From a virus, in IMG/VR virus record IMGVR_UViG_3300025652_000730, positions 1-20,152 of that record: 20,152 bases of DNA; one strand, given 5' to 3'. The first letter of the stretch is position 1. Each line of letters begins with the position of its first letter. Positions 2,218-16,398 of the stretch are shown here, piece after piece. Under the pieces are notes generated by a model that was not told where the DNA came from, did no database searches, and worked only from the letters and a program-made list of their open reading frames with translations. Both the position numbers and the translations under genes were made by a program.

Positions 2218-3272
2218 ATCTCTAAATCCTGTGCTTCAATATATAATTCTCTTGTTGTGTTCTTGAGTCTGTCTTTACTTAGGTTAATCGGCAGATCATC
2301 AATATAGCGTTCAAGTAAGGTCATAGTGTCCTCGGTATTCTCAACAATATCATCAGAGACATTGCTTGCATCCAACTCTGAGAAATCTTCAATAATCTTG
2401 ACCTCATGACAATCAGCTTGCAACAATCTATCAACAAATTTATCGAACTGATAAAGGTCTTTCTTATTTACCACAACCAATTTCACATATTTATTTTTGT
2501 ATGCCGACATATCATGATTATCGTCAAAAATGGACACTGTATCATCATAGTAAATCTTGGAGTAAATAGTGTGGGGATTGACAATCCGTTCCAACTCTCT
2601 CTTCTCTGTATCAAATACATGAAACCCTTTAGGATCATTCCAATCATTCCAGTAGATTTCATATGGTGTGCCAAGATAGAATATTTGGCCGTCATCTGAT
2701 TTGTGGTGATAGTGACCACTCATCACCATATCAAACCTTTTGAACTCTTGCTTGTCCCAGCCGTGGTCCATGAATAAACCTCTCTGCATCTCAAAACCAT
2801 TTAACTCTAAATGGCCCATGCAGATTTGAGCATCAGATGTTTGCAACATCTTCATCGTGTGAGACATATTCTCAGTATTAATCCAAGGAACAAATAGAAT
2901 TTTACATCCATCAAACTCAACTTCAGTTGATTTCTCATAAACGGTAATATTCTTGTGTCTGCCGTCCACAAGTTCTTGTAGTGAATTCACCTCGTTGGTA
3001 TTCTTATAGAAGGTGTCGTGATTTCCAACAAGCATGTGAAGGTTTATACCTTCAAACTTATCGATAAACCGCTCACGGAAATCTTTCGCAATACGATAGG
3101 ACACATATTTCCTTCTATCCATAACATCGCCGAGATGAACAACATCGGTTATGTTATGTTCTTTTAGATATGGGAAAAACTGATTCTCGTAAAACTGGAA
3201 AAAATATTCGTTAAAGTTTTGATTGTCATTCCTAGCGCCGAAGTGAGTGTCGGTGATTAGAGCTACTTTCAA
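2214..3272 (-). CDS. 47: Recombination endonuclease subunit gp47 (SbcD/Mre11-like nuclease)
   Basis: gp47 is the metal-dependent nuclease that pairs with gp46. The 352-residue protein shows the calcineurin-type phosphoesterase motifs: DTHFG (D8, H10), GDVMDRR (D49, D52), GNHD (N84, H85), a histidine in CMGHLELNGF (H154) and SGHYHH (H187, H189). A C-terminal cap region follows. The start is TTG at 3272, overlapping the TGA stop of gp55 as TTGA. GGAG lies about 9 nt upstream, inside the last gp55 codons. The encoded start MKVALITDTHFG fits the usual position of the first motif, so TTG is very likely the real start. The gene is the middle one of the 55-47-46 chain, each joined to the next by a 4-nt overlap. 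Confidence 0.96.
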   Translation of the reverse strand: MKVALITDTHFGARNDNQNFNEYFFQFYENQFFPYLKEHNITDVVHLGDVMDRRKYVSYRIAKDFRERFIDKFEGINLHMLVGNHDTFYKNTNEVNSLQELVDGRHKNITVYEKSTEVEFDGCKILFVPWINTENMSHTMKMLQTSDAQICMGHLELNGFEMQRGLFMDHGWDKQEFKRFDMVMSGHYHHKSDDGQIFYLGTPYEIYWNDWNDPKGFHVFDTEKRELERIVNPHTIYSKIYYDDTVSIFDDNHDMSAYKNKYVKLVVVNKKDLYQFDKFVDRLLQADCHEVKIIEDFSELDASNVSDDIVENTEDTMTLLERYIDDLPINLSKDRLKNTTRELYIEAQDLEI

Positions 3273-3808
3273 TCTTTTTTCTCCATGAAGACTTCTAGTC
3301 CTTTTTTCTTACCAGAGTCTTCTTTCTTCTTGGGTTTGTATACATCTTCTGCTGGCAAGAATGCAGCTAAGTCTATACCCTCAACATGATAAGTATTATT
3401 GTCACCTTCCATAGTTGTAAAGGAAGTATAGGCTTCCCTCTCAATCATTTTATTCTTCACATGACTTTGCTTTTTCTCTTTTGCAATTCTTCTTAGAAAT
3501 GCATAGTAGATTATCTGAGTAAAGTATGCAAAGGGGTTTTTTGATTTTTCTGGATTGAAATTTTTCACATATTGTAGACAATTCTCAATGCCGTCTGAAA
3601 TCATTTCATCTCTGTAAGTATAATTTATAAAATTTGGTCTATACGATAAATGAGTTGCAATTTTTAAGAAACACTCACCGATATAGTTTGTAACAGGAGG
3701 AGACTGCTTTCCATCATCCTCTGCGATAGCGCACTTCTCTCTCCACTCAATCATTGCCTGTAGAAAAACTTTGTTGTCTACATAATGGATACTTTTTTTC
3801 TTTGCCAT
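3269..3808 (-). CDS. 55: Late-transcription sigma factor gp55
   Basis: gp55 is the small sigma-like protein that directs host RNA polymerase to phage late promoters with the box TATAAATA. The protein is 179 residues, close to the 185 of T4 gp55. The central part, YIGECFLKIATHLSYRPNF then YRDEMISDGIENCLQYVKNFNPEKSKNPFAYFTQIIYYAFLRRIAKEK (about 60-120), is the sigma-70 region 2-like core typical of the family. The C-terminus is short and lysine-rich, where T4 gp55 contacts the flap and sliding-clamp machinery. The start ATG at 3808 has GGAG about 7 nt before it. A host-type promoter lies upstream, so it can be made before late transcription begins. Its expected target box occurs several times in this window. 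Confidence 0.93.
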   Translation of the reverse strand: MAKKKSIHYVDNKVFLQAMIEWREKCAIAEDDGKQSPPVTNYIGECFLKIATHLSYRPNFINYTYRDEMISDGIENCLQYVKNFNPEKSKNPFAYFTQIIYYAFLRRIAKEKKQSHVKNKMIEREAYTSFTTMEGDNNTYHVEGIDLAAFLPAEDVYKPKKKEDSGKKKGLEVFMEKKD

Positions 3809-6821: not shown

Positions 6822-7412
6822 TTATGATGCAGTGGTGTTCAATGCAGTAAATTGATATATCTGATATGCAAATGTAGCATTTGCAATCACATTAGTAACA
6901 TCTGTAGCATCATTGTTAAACTGTACGGCGCTCAATGCTACAGGATACAAATCTAAAAAATCAACCTGTAATAAAGGATTATTTTTATTTGACAAAACCA
7001 TAAGGTATGCATCAGAAAATAATGCATTAGCAGGTGTGGAAGCACCAACTCTATCAGTCGAAGGACTTACCGCTGCGCTTGGGGTGTTAGATATATTTGA
7101 CTTAAAATTACTGAACTGTTTTCTACTCTTTGGAAAACCAATTGCAGTCATCCATTCATGCAAAGACCGATAGTTCTCTAAAAACTCATCGACAATAAAA
7201 CTTATCTCTAAATTCTCATAAGTTATTTTATCACCCATAATCGGAATGTCTTTAAATGGGGTAGGAAAAAGAGCTTCCCCCATATTAATGCCTGGAATAT
7301 TTGCTGAAGTCGTAAAAAATTGCACTTTCGGTAATTGGTGAATACCGAAACGAAATTGAGTAGGACTCAAATAATCTAATTTATCTGGTTGTCTATCTAT
7401 AGCTGTGGTCAT
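6822..7412 (-). CDS. Tail-tube-fold protein, paralogue of gp19 (gp54/gp48-type candidate)
   Basis: The 196-residue protein resembles the tail tube protein encoded at 13342-13878. The stretches FFTTSANIPGINMGE, then PFKDIPIMGDKITYENLEISFIVDE, then YRSLHEWMTAIG align by eye with FLVTASNLPAQTLGE, PFRGRQIYIAGDRTFDDAWTTTFMND and RNAMELWMNGI of gp19. In T4 the tube fold is shared by gp19, the baseplate tube initiators gp48 and gp54, and gp3-like caps, so one of these roles is likely; which one I cannot tell. The frame is open to a TTG at 7472, but that codon lies upstream of the gp23 terminator hairpin. ATG 7412 (MTTAIDRQPDKL) lies beyond it and matches the usual N-terminus. There is no ribosome-binding site before this ATG, and a late-promoter box sits 5 nt upstream. 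Confidence 0.8.
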   Translation of the reverse strand: MTTAIDRQPDKLDYLSPTQFRFGIHQLPKVQFFTTSANIPGINMGEALFPTPFKDIPIMGDKITYENLEISFIVDEFLENYRSLHEWMTAIGFPKSRKQFSNFKSNISNTPSAAVSPSTDRVGASTPANALFSDAYLMVLSNKNNPLLQVDFLDLYPVALSAVQFNNDATDVTNVIANATFAYQIYQFTALNTTAS

Positions 7413-7417
7413 ACTAC

Positions 7418-7425
7418 TATTTATA
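7418..7425 (-). promoter_or_regulatory. Late promoter box TATAAATA before the tube-like gene
   Basis: A perfect gp55-type box TATAAATA on the minus strand. It begins two bases beyond the T tract of the gp23 terminator and ends 5 nt before the ATG at 7412. With the usual T4 spacing transcription would start at or next to that ATG. It appears to serve the tube-like gene, uvsY, the oxygenase gene, uvsW and the Sm-like gene. Confidence 0.7.
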
Positions 7426-7427
7426 AC

Positions 7428-7458
7428 AAAAAAAAGAGGAGGTCCGAAGACCCCCTCT
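7428..7458 (-). terminator. Rho-independent terminator after gp23
   Basis: On the minus strand GAGGGGGTC (7449-7457) pairs with GACCTCCTC (7436-7444) through nine base pairs with one G-U pair, closed by a TTCG tetraloop, and is followed by a run of eight T. It lies 30 nt after the gp23 stop. The other strand has no T run after the hairpin, so it works in one direction. It ends the head gene block. Confidence 0.93.
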
Positions 7459-8886: not shown

Positions 8887-10116
8887 TTAAACAGCGCCTT
8901 TGATACGTTTTTCAGTACGACCAATAGCAGACATATACGCCTTCATTGCGTTCGTCGTATCAATGTCCTGTTCGGCGCTACCATAGTCATCATCATTATC
9001 ATAAGTCTGATCAGAATTTACTTTCGGAAAATAACTTTCCTTCAGAGTATCCAACTTTTCACGGAAAGTGTCTTGGTTTTTAAAATCAATCTCTTCCGTC
9101 AGTGACTTAAACTTCTCAAACTGTGTATCAGTCAATTCAGAGGCAGCCTCTAAAACGACCTGTTCCCGAACCAAATCAGAATTAGCAGTCTTCATCTCAA
9201 TATTTTGTTCCATAATACCATTTAACTGCTCTTCCAGTTCAGCAATTTTCTCAGATTGTGCTTCAAGAACATTATACTTTTCGTTTGGAACGTCAATGTA
9301 ATGATCTTCAAACAACTGTTTCAAACCAGAAATAAAGTCTTCAGCAATCTCGCCCTTGAGTCCACGCTCAATTGCCAACTCGTTTTCTTTCATCCATTCC
9401 TCTACAACATAATCGAGGTATTGATCTACTTTTTCAGATAGAGTATCTTTATACTCATCTATTTCTATCGCCATAGCAACTTGTTGGTCTTCAGTAATTC
9501 TTGTCAACTCTTTACGAGTCTTGGATTTAACCGCAGCTTCAAAAATTGTTGCAGCTTTTTCCTTGAACTCTTCAGAGAGGTCTTCTCCATCAACGAGGGC
9601 ATTAATATCAGACGAAACATCAATGCTCTTGATGTAGTCTTCAACAACCTCTTCGTTCTTCTCAGAAGGCAAATGACCATCTTCTTTTTTCATCATACCA
9701 TATGTAGCCATAAGGTCTTTCTTGCCCATCGTTTCCATTTCTGCATACATAGCAGCCATGAGTTCTTCTTTGGACTTATTACCCATTTCTTCGTCTTCAT
9801 CCATTTCTGCATCTTCTTTAACTTTTTTAACTTTCTTCATAGGGTCTGGTTTCCCTTCATCCTTCTGTTGTTCGTCACCAGAGACTTCTTTCGCTTTATC
9901 TGCTGCAACATCAGTTGGGGAATCAGCGGCATCTGGTTCTACAACAGGATCACCACCATCTTGCATTTCATCAGATTGGGGCGGTCCTACTTTTTTAACT
10001 TTTTTCATCGGCTCTGCACCAGCAGACCCTTTAGTAGGAGCATCATGAGCGGCTTCTTCAAGTTCTGCAAGAACCTCCGCCTCTAGCTCTTCAATTGTTT
10101 GGTCTAATTCAGACAT
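8887..10116 (-). CDS. 22: Prohead scaffold core protein gp22
   Basis: gp22 forms the inner scaffold on which the head shell assembles, and is then cut up by gp21. The protein is 409 residues, longer than T4 gp22 (269). The N-terminal 130 residues are low-complexity, acidic and Ala/Pro-rich, and hold the basic heptad MKKVKKV twice (37-43 and 93-99). The rest is charged and helical with coiled-coil character (for example ISGLKQLFEDHYIDVPNEKYNVLEAQSEKIAELEEQLNGI), as expected for a scaffold. Many L-x-E and I-x-E tripeptides are possible protease sites. It lies between gp21 and gp23, as in T4. The ATG at 10116 has AAGGAG upstream and a perfect late box before it. The long N-terminal region is the main difference from T4. 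Confidence 0.92.
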   Translation of the reverse strand: MSELDQTIEELEAEVLAELEEAAHDAPTKGSAGAEPMKKVKKVGPPQSDEMQDGGDPVVEPDAADSPTDVAADKAKEVSGDEQQKDEGKPDPMKKVKKVKEDAEMDEDEEMGNKSKEELMAAMYAEMETMGKKDLMATYGMMKKEDGHLPSEKNEEVVEDYIKSIDVSSDINALVDGEDLSEEFKEKAATIFEAAVKSKTRKELTRITEDQQVAMAIEIDEYKDTLSEKVDQYLDYVVEEWMKENELAIERGLKGEIAEDFISGLKQLFEDHYIDVPNEKYNVLEAQSEKIAELEEQLNGIMEQNIEMKTANSDLVREQVVLEAASELTDTQFEKFKSLTEEIDFKNQDTFREKLDTLKESYFPKVNSDQTYDNDDDYGSAEQDIDTTNAMKAYMSAIGRTEKRIKGAV

Positions 10117-10143
10117 AGGAAGTCTCCTTTTTTTTATTAAATA

Positions 10144-10151
10144 TATTTATA
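10144..10151 (-). promoter_or_regulatory. Late promoter box TATAAATA before gp22
   Basis: A perfect TATAAATA on the minus strand in the 37-nt gap between gp21 and gp22, 27 nt before the gp22 ATG. The gap also holds AAGGAG for gp22. It would drive gp22 and, through the short gap, gp23. Confidence 0.75.
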
Positions 10152-13341: not shown

Positions 13342-13878
13342 TTAGACAAAATTTACGCTAGAGGCTTCAAAGTGTTGGTATCTCCAAGTGACTTCAAAAG
13401 TCTCAATCGAATCTGCTTGGTCATTAGTTAAATCTATTGCAGAAAGTGAAGTAGGCCATGCACTTCTAAAAATATAACTTTTGAGAATTGTATCATCCCT
13501 ATCTAACTGTTCAACCTGTAAGTCAGTTTGATAATCTGCAAGAGCAGTTACTCCGGTTGCTTCTGCGAGATCGTTGATACCGTTCATCCATAATTCCATT
13601 GCGTTACGAACCATAAAGTCAGTATCGTTCATAAATGTTGTTGTCCAAGCGTCATCAAAGGTTCTATCTCCAGCAATATAAATCTGCCTTCCTCTAAAGG
13701 GGATTGCAATTTCACCTAAAGTTTGTGCTGGAAGATTAGATGCCGTCACCAAGAATGAAGCCCTACGAACATCCAGACCAATTGCAATTCCAGATGGTGG
13801 AGTAATGGTAACTCTATATTGATTTGCCCGAGCGCCTCCGCCAAGTAAATTTGCTTTAAAATCATCTATTTGTGCCAT
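13342..13878 (-). CDS. 19: Tail tube protein gp19
   Basis: gp19 stacks in hexameric rings to form the inner tail tube through which DNA passes. The 178-residue protein (T4: 163) has the tube fold: NQYRVTITPP near the N-terminus, FLVTASNLPAQTLGEIAIPFRGRQIYIAGDRTFDDAWTTTFMND (42-86), the helix VRNAMELWMNGIND and the C-terminal strand ADSIETFEVTWRYQHFEA. The ATG at 13878 has AAGGAG about 9 nt upstream. It lies 13 nt after gp18 with no promoter between, so sheath and tube are co-transcribed. A second protein of the same fold is encoded at 6822-7412. Confidence 0.94.
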   Translation of the reverse strand: MAQIDDFKANLLGGGARANQYRVTITPPSGIAIGLDVRRASFLVTASNLPAQTLGEIAIPFRGRQIYIAGDRTFDDAWTTTFMNDTDFMVRNAMELWMNGINDLAEATGVTALADYQTDLQVEQLDRDDTILKSYIFRSAWPTSLSAIDLTNDQADSIETFEVTWRYQHFEASSVNFV

Positions 13879-13891
13879 GTGAAGTTACTCC

Positions 13892-15994
13892 TTAAAATTG
13901 TCCTACTACTTCACTAAACTCTACACCAGTGCGAACCGCAATAAAGTTAAGAGTAATGAAGTTAATTGATCTGGCTGGCTTGATATAAATGTCACCAATA
14001 AACTCATTTCGGTCTATGACCTCACCAGTGTTGTTCGTATCGTCACAAACCACTCTAAAGTCAAAAATACCTCTACGACCTTGAACATCTCTCAAGAAAG
14101 GTTCAATGAGATTTCTAAATTGTGCTCTCGTAAATTCATCGTTGAATTCAAAGAGAGAGAATTTAGCAGCAGTTGAAATAGCTTTTTCCAAAACTAAGAA
14201 CAATCTTCTAACATTGATTCTATCAAATGCACTGGGTTTTGCAAGTGCAGTCTTATCACCAAACAGAACCACTCCTTGGCCTGGAAAATCAACAATAGGA
14301 TTAATTCTTGCCCGATACAGCTGATCTCTTTCAGATTTCTTAGGATTATAAGAAAGTTTAATTGCACCTCTCACATTACCTCTGTTAAACCCACCTGGCG
14401 AGAACCAAGCGTCAGCAACTTGATCTGTGAAAGCACAAAGTCCAGCTGTGTCACCGTTCATTGGAACGAATCGGAAAACATCGTTATATTTGTCATACAT
14501 TTGTTTATATGCACTATCAAACACCATATATGAAGATGAGGGACAAAGGTCAAATGCATCAACAACATTATCTGTAGCAGTTATAGAACTTGAAACCCCC
14601 ACAGTTGCAGAACGGTGTGGAGAAGCAAAAGCAACACAATCTCTTCTTGTTTCTACAAGTGCATGTAACATGGTAACATGCGTATCTTGTGTGGATGCGC
14701 TGTCACCGGCACCACCACCTTTACCACCAAGAATAAGATTAACATCAACCGACTCTGTATCTTCAAAATTATCATAAGCTATTTCAAGTTCTCCAGCAGT
14801 TACCGCATAATCATCAGTACCATTTTTAAGATTTGATGTTGTTGGTGTATCCAACGCAGCGTATGAAGTACCACCAATTTCAAGCTCGATATTGCCGTTT
14901 TCGTCTTCATTTGAAGTGCCAGTAGCATCTAGAACAATATTATCTCCAGCATTCGCACCGGCGCCGTCAGTTCCACCATCTTCCATGACGATCTGACTTG
15001 TTTCACCAGTGAAGTCTGTGCCCCAGTTAGTTCCGGCACTATTATGATCCATCCAGTATATAAAACTAGAAGTCCTAAAAATTTTGTCTGCATAGTAAAC
15101 ACTATCACCTTGTGGTGATTTACAATTTGGATTTTTAGAGAGGTTTGCAAATGTCTCTAAGACAGCACTTGTTCTATTACCATTACTCTCTACAGCAAAT
15201 CCATTAATTTCCCCTTGTTGGTCATATACAACAACATGAATCTCATCTAGTGTTCCTCTTTGGTTTTGTGTAGCATAATCTGATGTGCCTGGAGCGGCAT
15301 CAAACAAATCATAAAATCTCCACCGGCGTCTAATATTTGTACCCGAAGCGATTGTGCTTTGAAGACCAACACCATTCGGATCGTCTTTGAGTTTAATTGT
15401 GATAGTAGAAGCATCAGCAGCCGTTACTTGATATTCAAATCCTAGTGTTTCACCAAAATTAACAATATCATGAATGGTGAAAACTGTACCATCAGTTACA
15501 CTAATAACTGTCTGACCAAGAGCCTCTTCAGCACTTGTGGTTGTTACAGCAGTCTCTTCATATGCAGTTGCATTAGCACAAATGGATACACCTAACGAAT
15601 TACCATGTATTCCTGCGGTTCTTGCCGCCCATTCACCAACTGAAGCTTGACCATCTTCAAATGAATCTTCATAGTGATCGTCATCACGAATAAGAATTGA
15701 TGTTCCAGATGCTATCGCATTAGTAACACCAGATTCGCAACGAACAACTTTTAGTTGGTCTGTATATTGAAGAAAATTTGCAGCGGTGAAGAATGTTTCA
15801 AACTGATTTGAACTATTTTGGGGTTTCCCAAAAACTTTGACCAAATCTTCTTCACTACCAACAGTTACGATTGAATTAACTGGACCCTTTTCAAAAGCAC
15901 CAGCAATAGCACCAATCGATGTTGAAACTGCTGGGACAATTGTTGTAAGATCAATTTCTCTTACATGTACGCCAGGAGACTTTAAAAAACTCAT
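13892..15994 (-). CDS. 18: Contractile tail sheath protein gp18
   Basis: gp18 forms the contractile sheath around the tube. The protein is 700 residues (T4: 659). The N-terminus FLKSPGVHVREIDLTT and the C-terminal domain are typical; the latter includes VDFPGQGVVLFGDKTALAKPSAFDRINVRRLFLVLEKAI, then FNDEFTRAQFRNLIEPFLRDVQGRRGIFDFRVVCD and GDIYIKPARSINFITLNFIAV. These last segments are the sheath core that slots between neighbours. A Thr/Ser-rich beta domain at about 145-225 (ISVTDGTVFTIHDIVNFGE) and a Gly-rich surface stretch at about 330-430 look like inserted, outward-facing domains. The ATG at 15994 has AAGGAG 8 nt upstream. A perfect late box lies about 40 nt before it. Confidence 0.95.
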   Translation of the reverse strand: MSFLKSPGVHVREIDLTTIVPAVSTSIGAIAGAFEKGPVNSIVTVGSEEDLVKVFGKPQNSSNQFETFFTAANFLQYTDQLKVVRCESGVTNAIASGTSILIRDDDHYEDSFEDGQASVGEWAARTAGIHGNSLGVSICANATAYEETAVTTTSAEEALGQTVISVTDGTVFTIHDIVNFGETLGFEYQVTAADASTITIKLKDDPNGVGLQSTIASGTNIRRRWRFYDLFDAAPGTSDYATQNQRGTLDEIHVVVYDQQGEINGFAVESNGNRTSAVLETFANLSKNPNCKSPQGDSVYYADKIFRTSSFIYWMDHNSAGTNWGTDFTGETSQIVMEDGGTDGAGANAGDNIVLDATGTSNEDENGNIELEIGGTSYAALDTPTTSNLKNGTDDYAVTAGELEIAYDNFEDTESVDVNLILGGKGGGAGDSASTQDTHVTMLHALVETRRDCVAFASPHRSATVGVSSSITATDNVVDAFDLCPSSSYMVFDSAYKQMYDKYNDVFRFVPMNGDTAGLCAFTDQVADAWFSPGGFNRGNVRGAIKLSYNPKKSERDQLYRARINPIVDFPGQGVVLFGDKTALAKPSAFDRINVRRLFLVLEKAISTAAKFSLFEFNDEFTRAQFRNLIEPFLRDVQGRRGIFDFRVVCDDTNNTGEVIDRNEFIGDIYIKPARSINFITLNFIAVRTGVEFSEVVGQF

Positions 15995-16030: not shown

Positions 16031-16047
16031 GAATATTTATAATATTC
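16031..16047. repeat. 7-bp palindrome around the gp18 late box
   Basis: GAATATT (16031-16037) and AATATTC (16041-16047) are exact reverse complements with a 3-nt centre. The late box of gp18 lies inside. AT-rich boxes favour such symmetry, so it may be incidental. Confidence 0.45.
16034..16041 (-). promoter_or_regulatory. Late promoter box TATAAATA before gp18
   Basis: A perfect gp55-type box on the minus strand, 39 nt before the gp18 ATG. It sits in the 104-nt gap 15995-16098 between gp18 and the plus-strand gene, back to back with the box of that gene. Confidence 0.78.
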
Positions 16048-16066
16048 GATTTCCTAAACTGACCGT

Positions 16067-16090
16067 TTTATAAGTGTTATAACTTATAAA
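16067..16090. repeat. 9-bp palindrome overlapping the plus-strand late box
   Basis: TTTATAAGT (16067-16075) and ACTTATAAA (16082-16090) are exact reverse complements separated by 6 nt. The right arm overlaps the late box at 16085-16092. It lies upstream of the expected RNA start, so it would act as DNA, for instance as a binding site. Confidence 0.55.
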
Positions 16091-16092
16091 TA
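16085..16092 (+). promoter_or_regulatory. Late promoter box TATAAATA for the plus-strand HNH-like gene
   Basis: A perfect box on the plus strand, ending 6 nt before the ATG at 16099. There is no ribosome-binding site in between, and the expected start of transcription is at or one base before the ATG. Confidence 0.65.
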
Positions 16093-16098
16093 AATACC

Positions 16099-16398
16099 AT
16101 GAATGAACACTATGAAAAATACAAAGAGACAATCAAAAGAGTATCTCGTAGAAACTATCACAAAAGAATCGTGATATTAAACGAGCTTTTAGCAGATAAA
16201 TCGTGTATTCACTGTGGTGAAAGCGAAACTATCTGCCTGAAATTTCATCCTCATGACTCCGAAATTCGCAAGTTAACAAAACGAGTGGGCACCAATGATA
16301 AAAGCAGAAAAGAAATATTTCATTTGATAGGTGAGTCAAAAATTCTGTGTTCAAACTGTTTTATCAAAGTTGATAATGACCTAATAGAATTTATTTAG
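16099..16398 (+). CDS. Small HNH-like zinc-finger protein, degenerate active site
   Basis: The 99-residue protein is the only gene on the plus strand. It has the zinc-binding frame of small phage HNH proteins: CIHC (36-39) and, after about 45 residues, CSNC (84-87). Between them ICLKFHPHDSEIRKL takes the place of the usual LEFHHIDP motif, so the HH pair reads H50-P51-H52. The residue after the last cysteine, normally His, is Phe (F88). It may therefore be an inactive or altered endonuclease, or a DNA- or RNA-binding protein. The N-terminus is basic and helical. It is divergent from gp18 and ends 4 nt from the end of gp17, facing it. Free-standing HNH genes often lie near terminase genes in phages, so it may be a mobile insert. 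Confidence 0.75.
   Translation: MNEHYEKYKETIKRVSRRNYHKRIVILNELLADKSCIHCGESETICLKFHPHDSEIRKLTKRVGTNDKSRKEIFHLIGESKILCSNCFIKVDNDLIEFI

Follow-up and report, generated by a model that had tools for sequence, protein, structure and literature searches.

A late promoter box five nucleotides before the start codon marks candidate leaderless late genes in marine T4-like phages

In a viral genome fragment of 20,152 nt (the window), a T4-type late promoter box lies immediately before the ATG of a gp3-like gene. Could the mRNA of this gene begin with its own start codon, and is the arrangement a single case or the mark of a class? An earlier note on this DNA had proposed a leaderless mRNA, based on a late box, a 5-nt gap and an ATG at 7410-7425 and on a missing ribosome-binding site. 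A base-by-base check returned TATAAATA-GTAGT-ATG on the minus strand, and no SD motif precedes the ATG. The features of the locus are as follows:

7418..7425, minus strand: T4-type late promoter box TATAAATA, -13 to -6 in T4 numbering, exact match
7413..7417, minus strand: 5-nt spacer GTAGT with a pyrimidine at -1
7410..7412, minus strand: ATG start codon, its A being the predicted +1
6822..7412, minus strand: gp3-like tail-tube-family protein of 196 aa, predicted leaderless (phrog_45, E 1.1e-34)
7427..7458, minus strand: intrinsic terminator after gp23, a stem of 10 pairs at 7458-7435 followed by a T run (folding energy -20 kcal/mol, z -4.3)
3269..3808, minus strand: late sigma factor gp55, which would read the late boxes of the window (phrog_234, E 1.4e-63)

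The name "tube-like", previously given to the gene, holds for its family, phrog_45, but the protein is the counterpart of cyanophage gp3 and not of the tube gene proper. We prefer "gp3-like", because the gene is homologous to the S-RIM8 gene annotated gp3, located directly after gp23; the tube gene proper is probably 13342-13878, beside the sheath gene. No sigma-70-type promoter was found near the box at 7418-7425, which comes without a -35 element, and a search for structured RNAs or riboswitches gave no Rfam match in the window. The motif TATAAATA occurs four times in the window versus 1.5 expected. This count is weak alone; the case rests on spacing and conservation.

The other three late boxes include a second candidate, on the plus strand, and two contrasting cases:

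16085..16092, plus strand: late box TATAAATA of the second case, exact match
16099..16398, plus strand: 99-aa HNH-like protein, predicted leaderless, start 6 nt after the box (weak phrog_3106/2255 matches)
10144..10151, minus strand: late box upstream of the gp22-like scaffold gene (8887-10116), whose SD-led start is 27 nt away
16034..16041, minus strand: late box upstream of the tail sheath gene (13892-15994), whose SD-led start is 39 nt away

The same arrangement had been claimed for the gene at 16099. The site is real, with a box and no SD motif, but its spacing is 6 nt (AATACC) and not 5; the Melnitz-2 ortholog has a spacing of 5. SD motifs are absent upstream of both ATGs (7412 and 16099) and present in 15 of the 19 other scorable genes of the window. 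Two late boxes stand back to back between the sheath and HNH-like genes (16034-16092), the sheath start being SD-led at 39 nt and the HNH-like start lacking an SD motif at 6 nt. The 99-aa gene itself is located between terminase and sheath and is well conserved among marine relatives. Its product carries paired CxxC motifs and resembles HNH proteins only weakly, and a Pfam search with it gave no match.

Where would transcription from such a box begin? In T4 the late box runs from -13, its first base (PMC2988020), to -6. Position +1 is therefore reached six bases past the box, and at a spacing of 5 nt the A of the ATG falls on this position. Since the numbering was borrowed from T4, a distant relative, it was checked in the marine phages themselves. 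Among 67 distinct SD-led late promoters of these phages, a pyrimidine-purine step is present at positions 5/6 after the box in 35 (0.52), compared to about 0.13-0.31 for the other steps (p about 3e-6 for 5/6). This peak in SD-led promoters places +1 independently at the sixth base. The 16 SD-led promoters of T4 show no clear 5/6 peak, this set being too small. Of 117 distinct spacing-5 strings from the relatives, 116 have a pyrimidine directly before the ATG. In the spacing-8 class all 18 show the step at 5/6, pointing to a leader of 3 nt. As judged from sequence, the earlier proposal that the A of the ATG is the RNA start is supported, the conserved spacing matching the T4 +1 numbering.

We then asked how often a gene starts at this distance. 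For the window and three complete genomes (Melnitz-2, Mosig and HTVC008M), genes were predicted with a simple ORF caller, and the distance from NATAAATA to each ATG start was tallied. A distance of exactly 5 nt was found for 18 genes, while no other value between 0 and 15 was shared by more than two. With TATAAATA alone, ten genes start at spacing 5; the 55 permuted arrangements of its letters gave an average of 0.13 and a maximum of one. In the T4 control no called gene starts at spacing 5, the nearest being at 13 nt and the starts being mostly SD-led. Chance as the cause of the peak was ruled out by the permuted boxes and the T4 control. Every spacing-5 start in the surveyed genomes is an ATG, never GTG or TTG. 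Two genes of P-SSM4 start at spacing 5, none do so in Syn9 and S-RIM8, and TATAAATA-N5-ATG was found nowhere in S-PM2, P-SSM2 and KVP40. In a collection-wide pattern scan (80 loci scored), spacing 5 outnumbered every other short spacing among the matches listed. A -10-type signal about 10-12 nt before the start stood above shuffled background, as described for TA-led genes (PMC3160421).

A survey of box-to-ATG distances across relatives, as suggested in the earlier note, was performed on IMG/VR homologs of the gp3-, gp2-, gp25- and HNH-like genes. The distance was read locus by locus, and in all four families, about 390 loci together, the commonest spacing is 5 nt; loci of one family are akin, so these counts are not independent. 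For gp3 of the window type, 52 of 78 loci have a spacing of 5, 11 of 8 and 13 of 16-23, and none falls in the range of 9-15. Of the 13 scored at 16-23 nt, 12 carry GAGG or AGGAG, and L057, which was scored among them, really has a variant CTAAATA box at spacing 5. SD motifs in gp3 are thus seen solely at distances of at least 16 nt. Mosig-type gp3 has a spacing of 5 in all 66 loci with a recognised box. For the HNH-like gene, 73 of 79 loci were scored at 5 and the other six at 2. The latter are of two types: one is identical to the window, 6 nt from TATAAATA with an overlapping AATAAATA closer by, and the other has two consecutive ATGs, the second of which matches the other proteins and lies at 5. 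The gp2-like DNA end protector (phrog_429) is more spread, with 41, 20, 4 and 13 loci at 5, 6, 7 and 8 nt, as is the gp25-like baseplate wedge protein (phrog_261), with 36, 20, 3, 19 and 2 at spacings 5-9. The rule is therefore not strictly an A at +1. The letters of the 5-nt spacer vary widely (GTAGT, GTTAT, ATATC, TTGTT, GTCGT) at constant length. The spacing of 5 nt is thus strongly and repeatedly conserved, and together with the 18-gene peak these surveys bear out the guess of a genuine gene class.

Based on these sequence data, a set of late genes in a marine T4-like lineage is very probably expressed from leaderless mRNA. Late RNA polymerase of the gp55 type would bind NATAAATA and begin RNA at the sixth base after it, which would be the A of the AUG at spacing 5, or at spacing 6 with a one-base shift; at spacing 8, RNA would start 3 nt before the AUG. 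Ribosomes, presumably 70S together with initiator tRNA, would load directly onto the 5'-terminal AUG, and an SD motif would be neither present nor needed. At the gp3-like locus, the T run of the terminator stops two bases short of the late box at 7425, and among 63 gp3 relatives of the leaderless type, 55 have a T run adjoining the box. The terminator would separate the gp3 message from the presumably very abundant gp23 mRNA.

The same genes could instead be translated from longer read-through mRNAs, the box being a minor or unused promoter whose AU-rich RNA permits SD-free starts. AU-rich, unstructured starts can indeed permit SD-independent initiation, the neighbouring genes are mostly on the same strand, and the 40 nt from the AUG of the gp3-like gene onward were unstructured in folding. 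But a strong terminator lies directly upstream of gp3 and is usual among the relatives, and read-through into the HNH-like gene from its neighbours is impossible because they are on the opposite strand. Moreover, an AU-rich enhancer leaves both the fixed spacing of 5 and the pyrimidine at -1 unexplained. We therefore regard read-through as improbable.

We see even less reason to think that genome compaction merely pushed promoters onto start codons, so that the exact spacing has no functional meaning. The cultured relatives have streamlined hosts and tight intergenic spaces, which speaks for this idea, but compaction predicts a spread of distances, and what is seen is a spike at 5, a gap at 9-15 in gp3 and a recurrent exchange with SD leaders. 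That the true start codon lies elsewhere, behind a normal ribosome-binding site, has a precedent in Melnitz-2 gp3, which begins 22 nt from the box behind a weak SD motif. In the window and most relatives, however, protein similarity begins within a few residues of the proposed ATG, and the first 20 codons after it hold no further in-frame ATG; such a displaced start is very hard to maintain and appears slightly less plausible still than compaction. An in-frame start upstream was ruled out, the frame not being kept (L003 is one T short in the T run).

The leaderless reading does not imply that a gene is bound to one mode of initiation. In the gp3 tree, SD-led members are scattered and account for five changes, at least four of which are forced by well-supported branches; one of the five is the mislabelled L057. 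In Melnitz-2 (129242-129290), gp3 starts at the second ATG, with box-N5-ATG kept as a tiny upstream ORF, an apparent relic of the leaderless state. Melnitz-2 gp25 is likewise SD-led, at 16 nt. Thus, one gene can use either mode. In Mosig, late boxes overlap on opposite strands between divergent genes (60977-60990), one start being at spacing 5 and the other SD-led.

The leaderless candidates include gp2, gp3 and gp25 as well as a neck adaptor, which has a spacing of 8. Others encode a tape-measure-like protein, a protein of the fibre or baseplate, a 2OG oxygenase and, in P-SSM4, plastoquinol terminal oxidase. This last one, an auxiliary metabolic gene (107303-107816), starts exactly 5 nt after TATAAATA. 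The SD-led late boxes of the window belong to the gp22-like scaffold and the sheath, proteins that are high-copy in T4. It seems reasonable, judging from T4 stoichiometry, that leaderless starts serve minor virion proteins.

Some of these phages also encode a ribosomal protein, bS21:

Melnitz-2, 35389-35661: phage bS21
Mosig, 9983-10132: phage bS21
HTVC008M, 91237-91392: phage bS21

A search for bS21 in T4, KVP40, Syn9, S-PM2, S-RIM8, P-SSM2 and P-SSM4 found it in none of the seven. Of the ten genomes searched, the three that encode it are precisely those with many predicted leaderless late genes, a match confounded by shared ancestry. In other phages, bS21 expression has been linked to late-stage replication (PMC9723584). 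Located near the anti-SD on the 30S subunit, bS21 could tilt host ribosomes toward leaderless starts. A dedicated programme of SD-independent translation late in infection, in which a phage bS21 would shift host ribosomes to the leaderless mRNAs of minor virion proteins, is nevertheless a speculative and rather unlikely extension.

If the leaderless reading is true, essential virion proteins in abundant and widespread marine relatives of T4 use a different translation start, T4 itself being a textbook example of leader-bearing late genes with SD sites. Gene-start and promoter calls could be improved across many ocean phage genomes. The class would also offer natural material on how host ribosomes treat leaderless messages, and leaderless and SD-led orthologs of one gene could be compared directly. 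Searches of the open-access full-text literature yielded no description of leaderless late genes for any T4-like phage, and the Melnitz paper contains the word "leaderless" only in a gene-finder reference. Within this literature, the combination of leaderless starts with T4-type late promoters as a gene class is apparently new.

Each of its parts has known counterparts. Leaderless mRNAs are well known from bacteria and from lambda cI (PMC9031893, PMC3160421). These share with the marine class the AUG at or beside the 5' end, which is predicted here, and the lack of an SD motif; what sets the marine class, with its predicted 5' ends, apart is its link to a sigma factor specific to the phage and to a group of virion genes. 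For the TA-led genes described by Zheng et al. 2011 (PMC3160421), a -10 signal located about 10-12 nt upstream of the start was read as leaderless, but these genes belong to cellular genomes and sigma-70-like signals, whereas the marine class has T4-type late promoters. Late promoters with NATAAATA are known in marine T4-like phages, including the cyanophages S-PM2 and Syn9 (PMC2984593). The motif is the same, and in the cyanophages surveyed these promoters are leader-bearing except for the two P-SSM4 genes at spacing 5. With T4 late transcription (gp55, gp33, gp45), the marine class shares the box sequence and its numbering, a gp55 homolog, encoded in the window, and the virion genes downstream. 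In T4, unlike in the marine class, no late gene begins at +1; its late genes are preceded by leaders, most of which contain an SD motif. The leaderless late class is a feature of the marine T4-like phages that T4 itself lacks.
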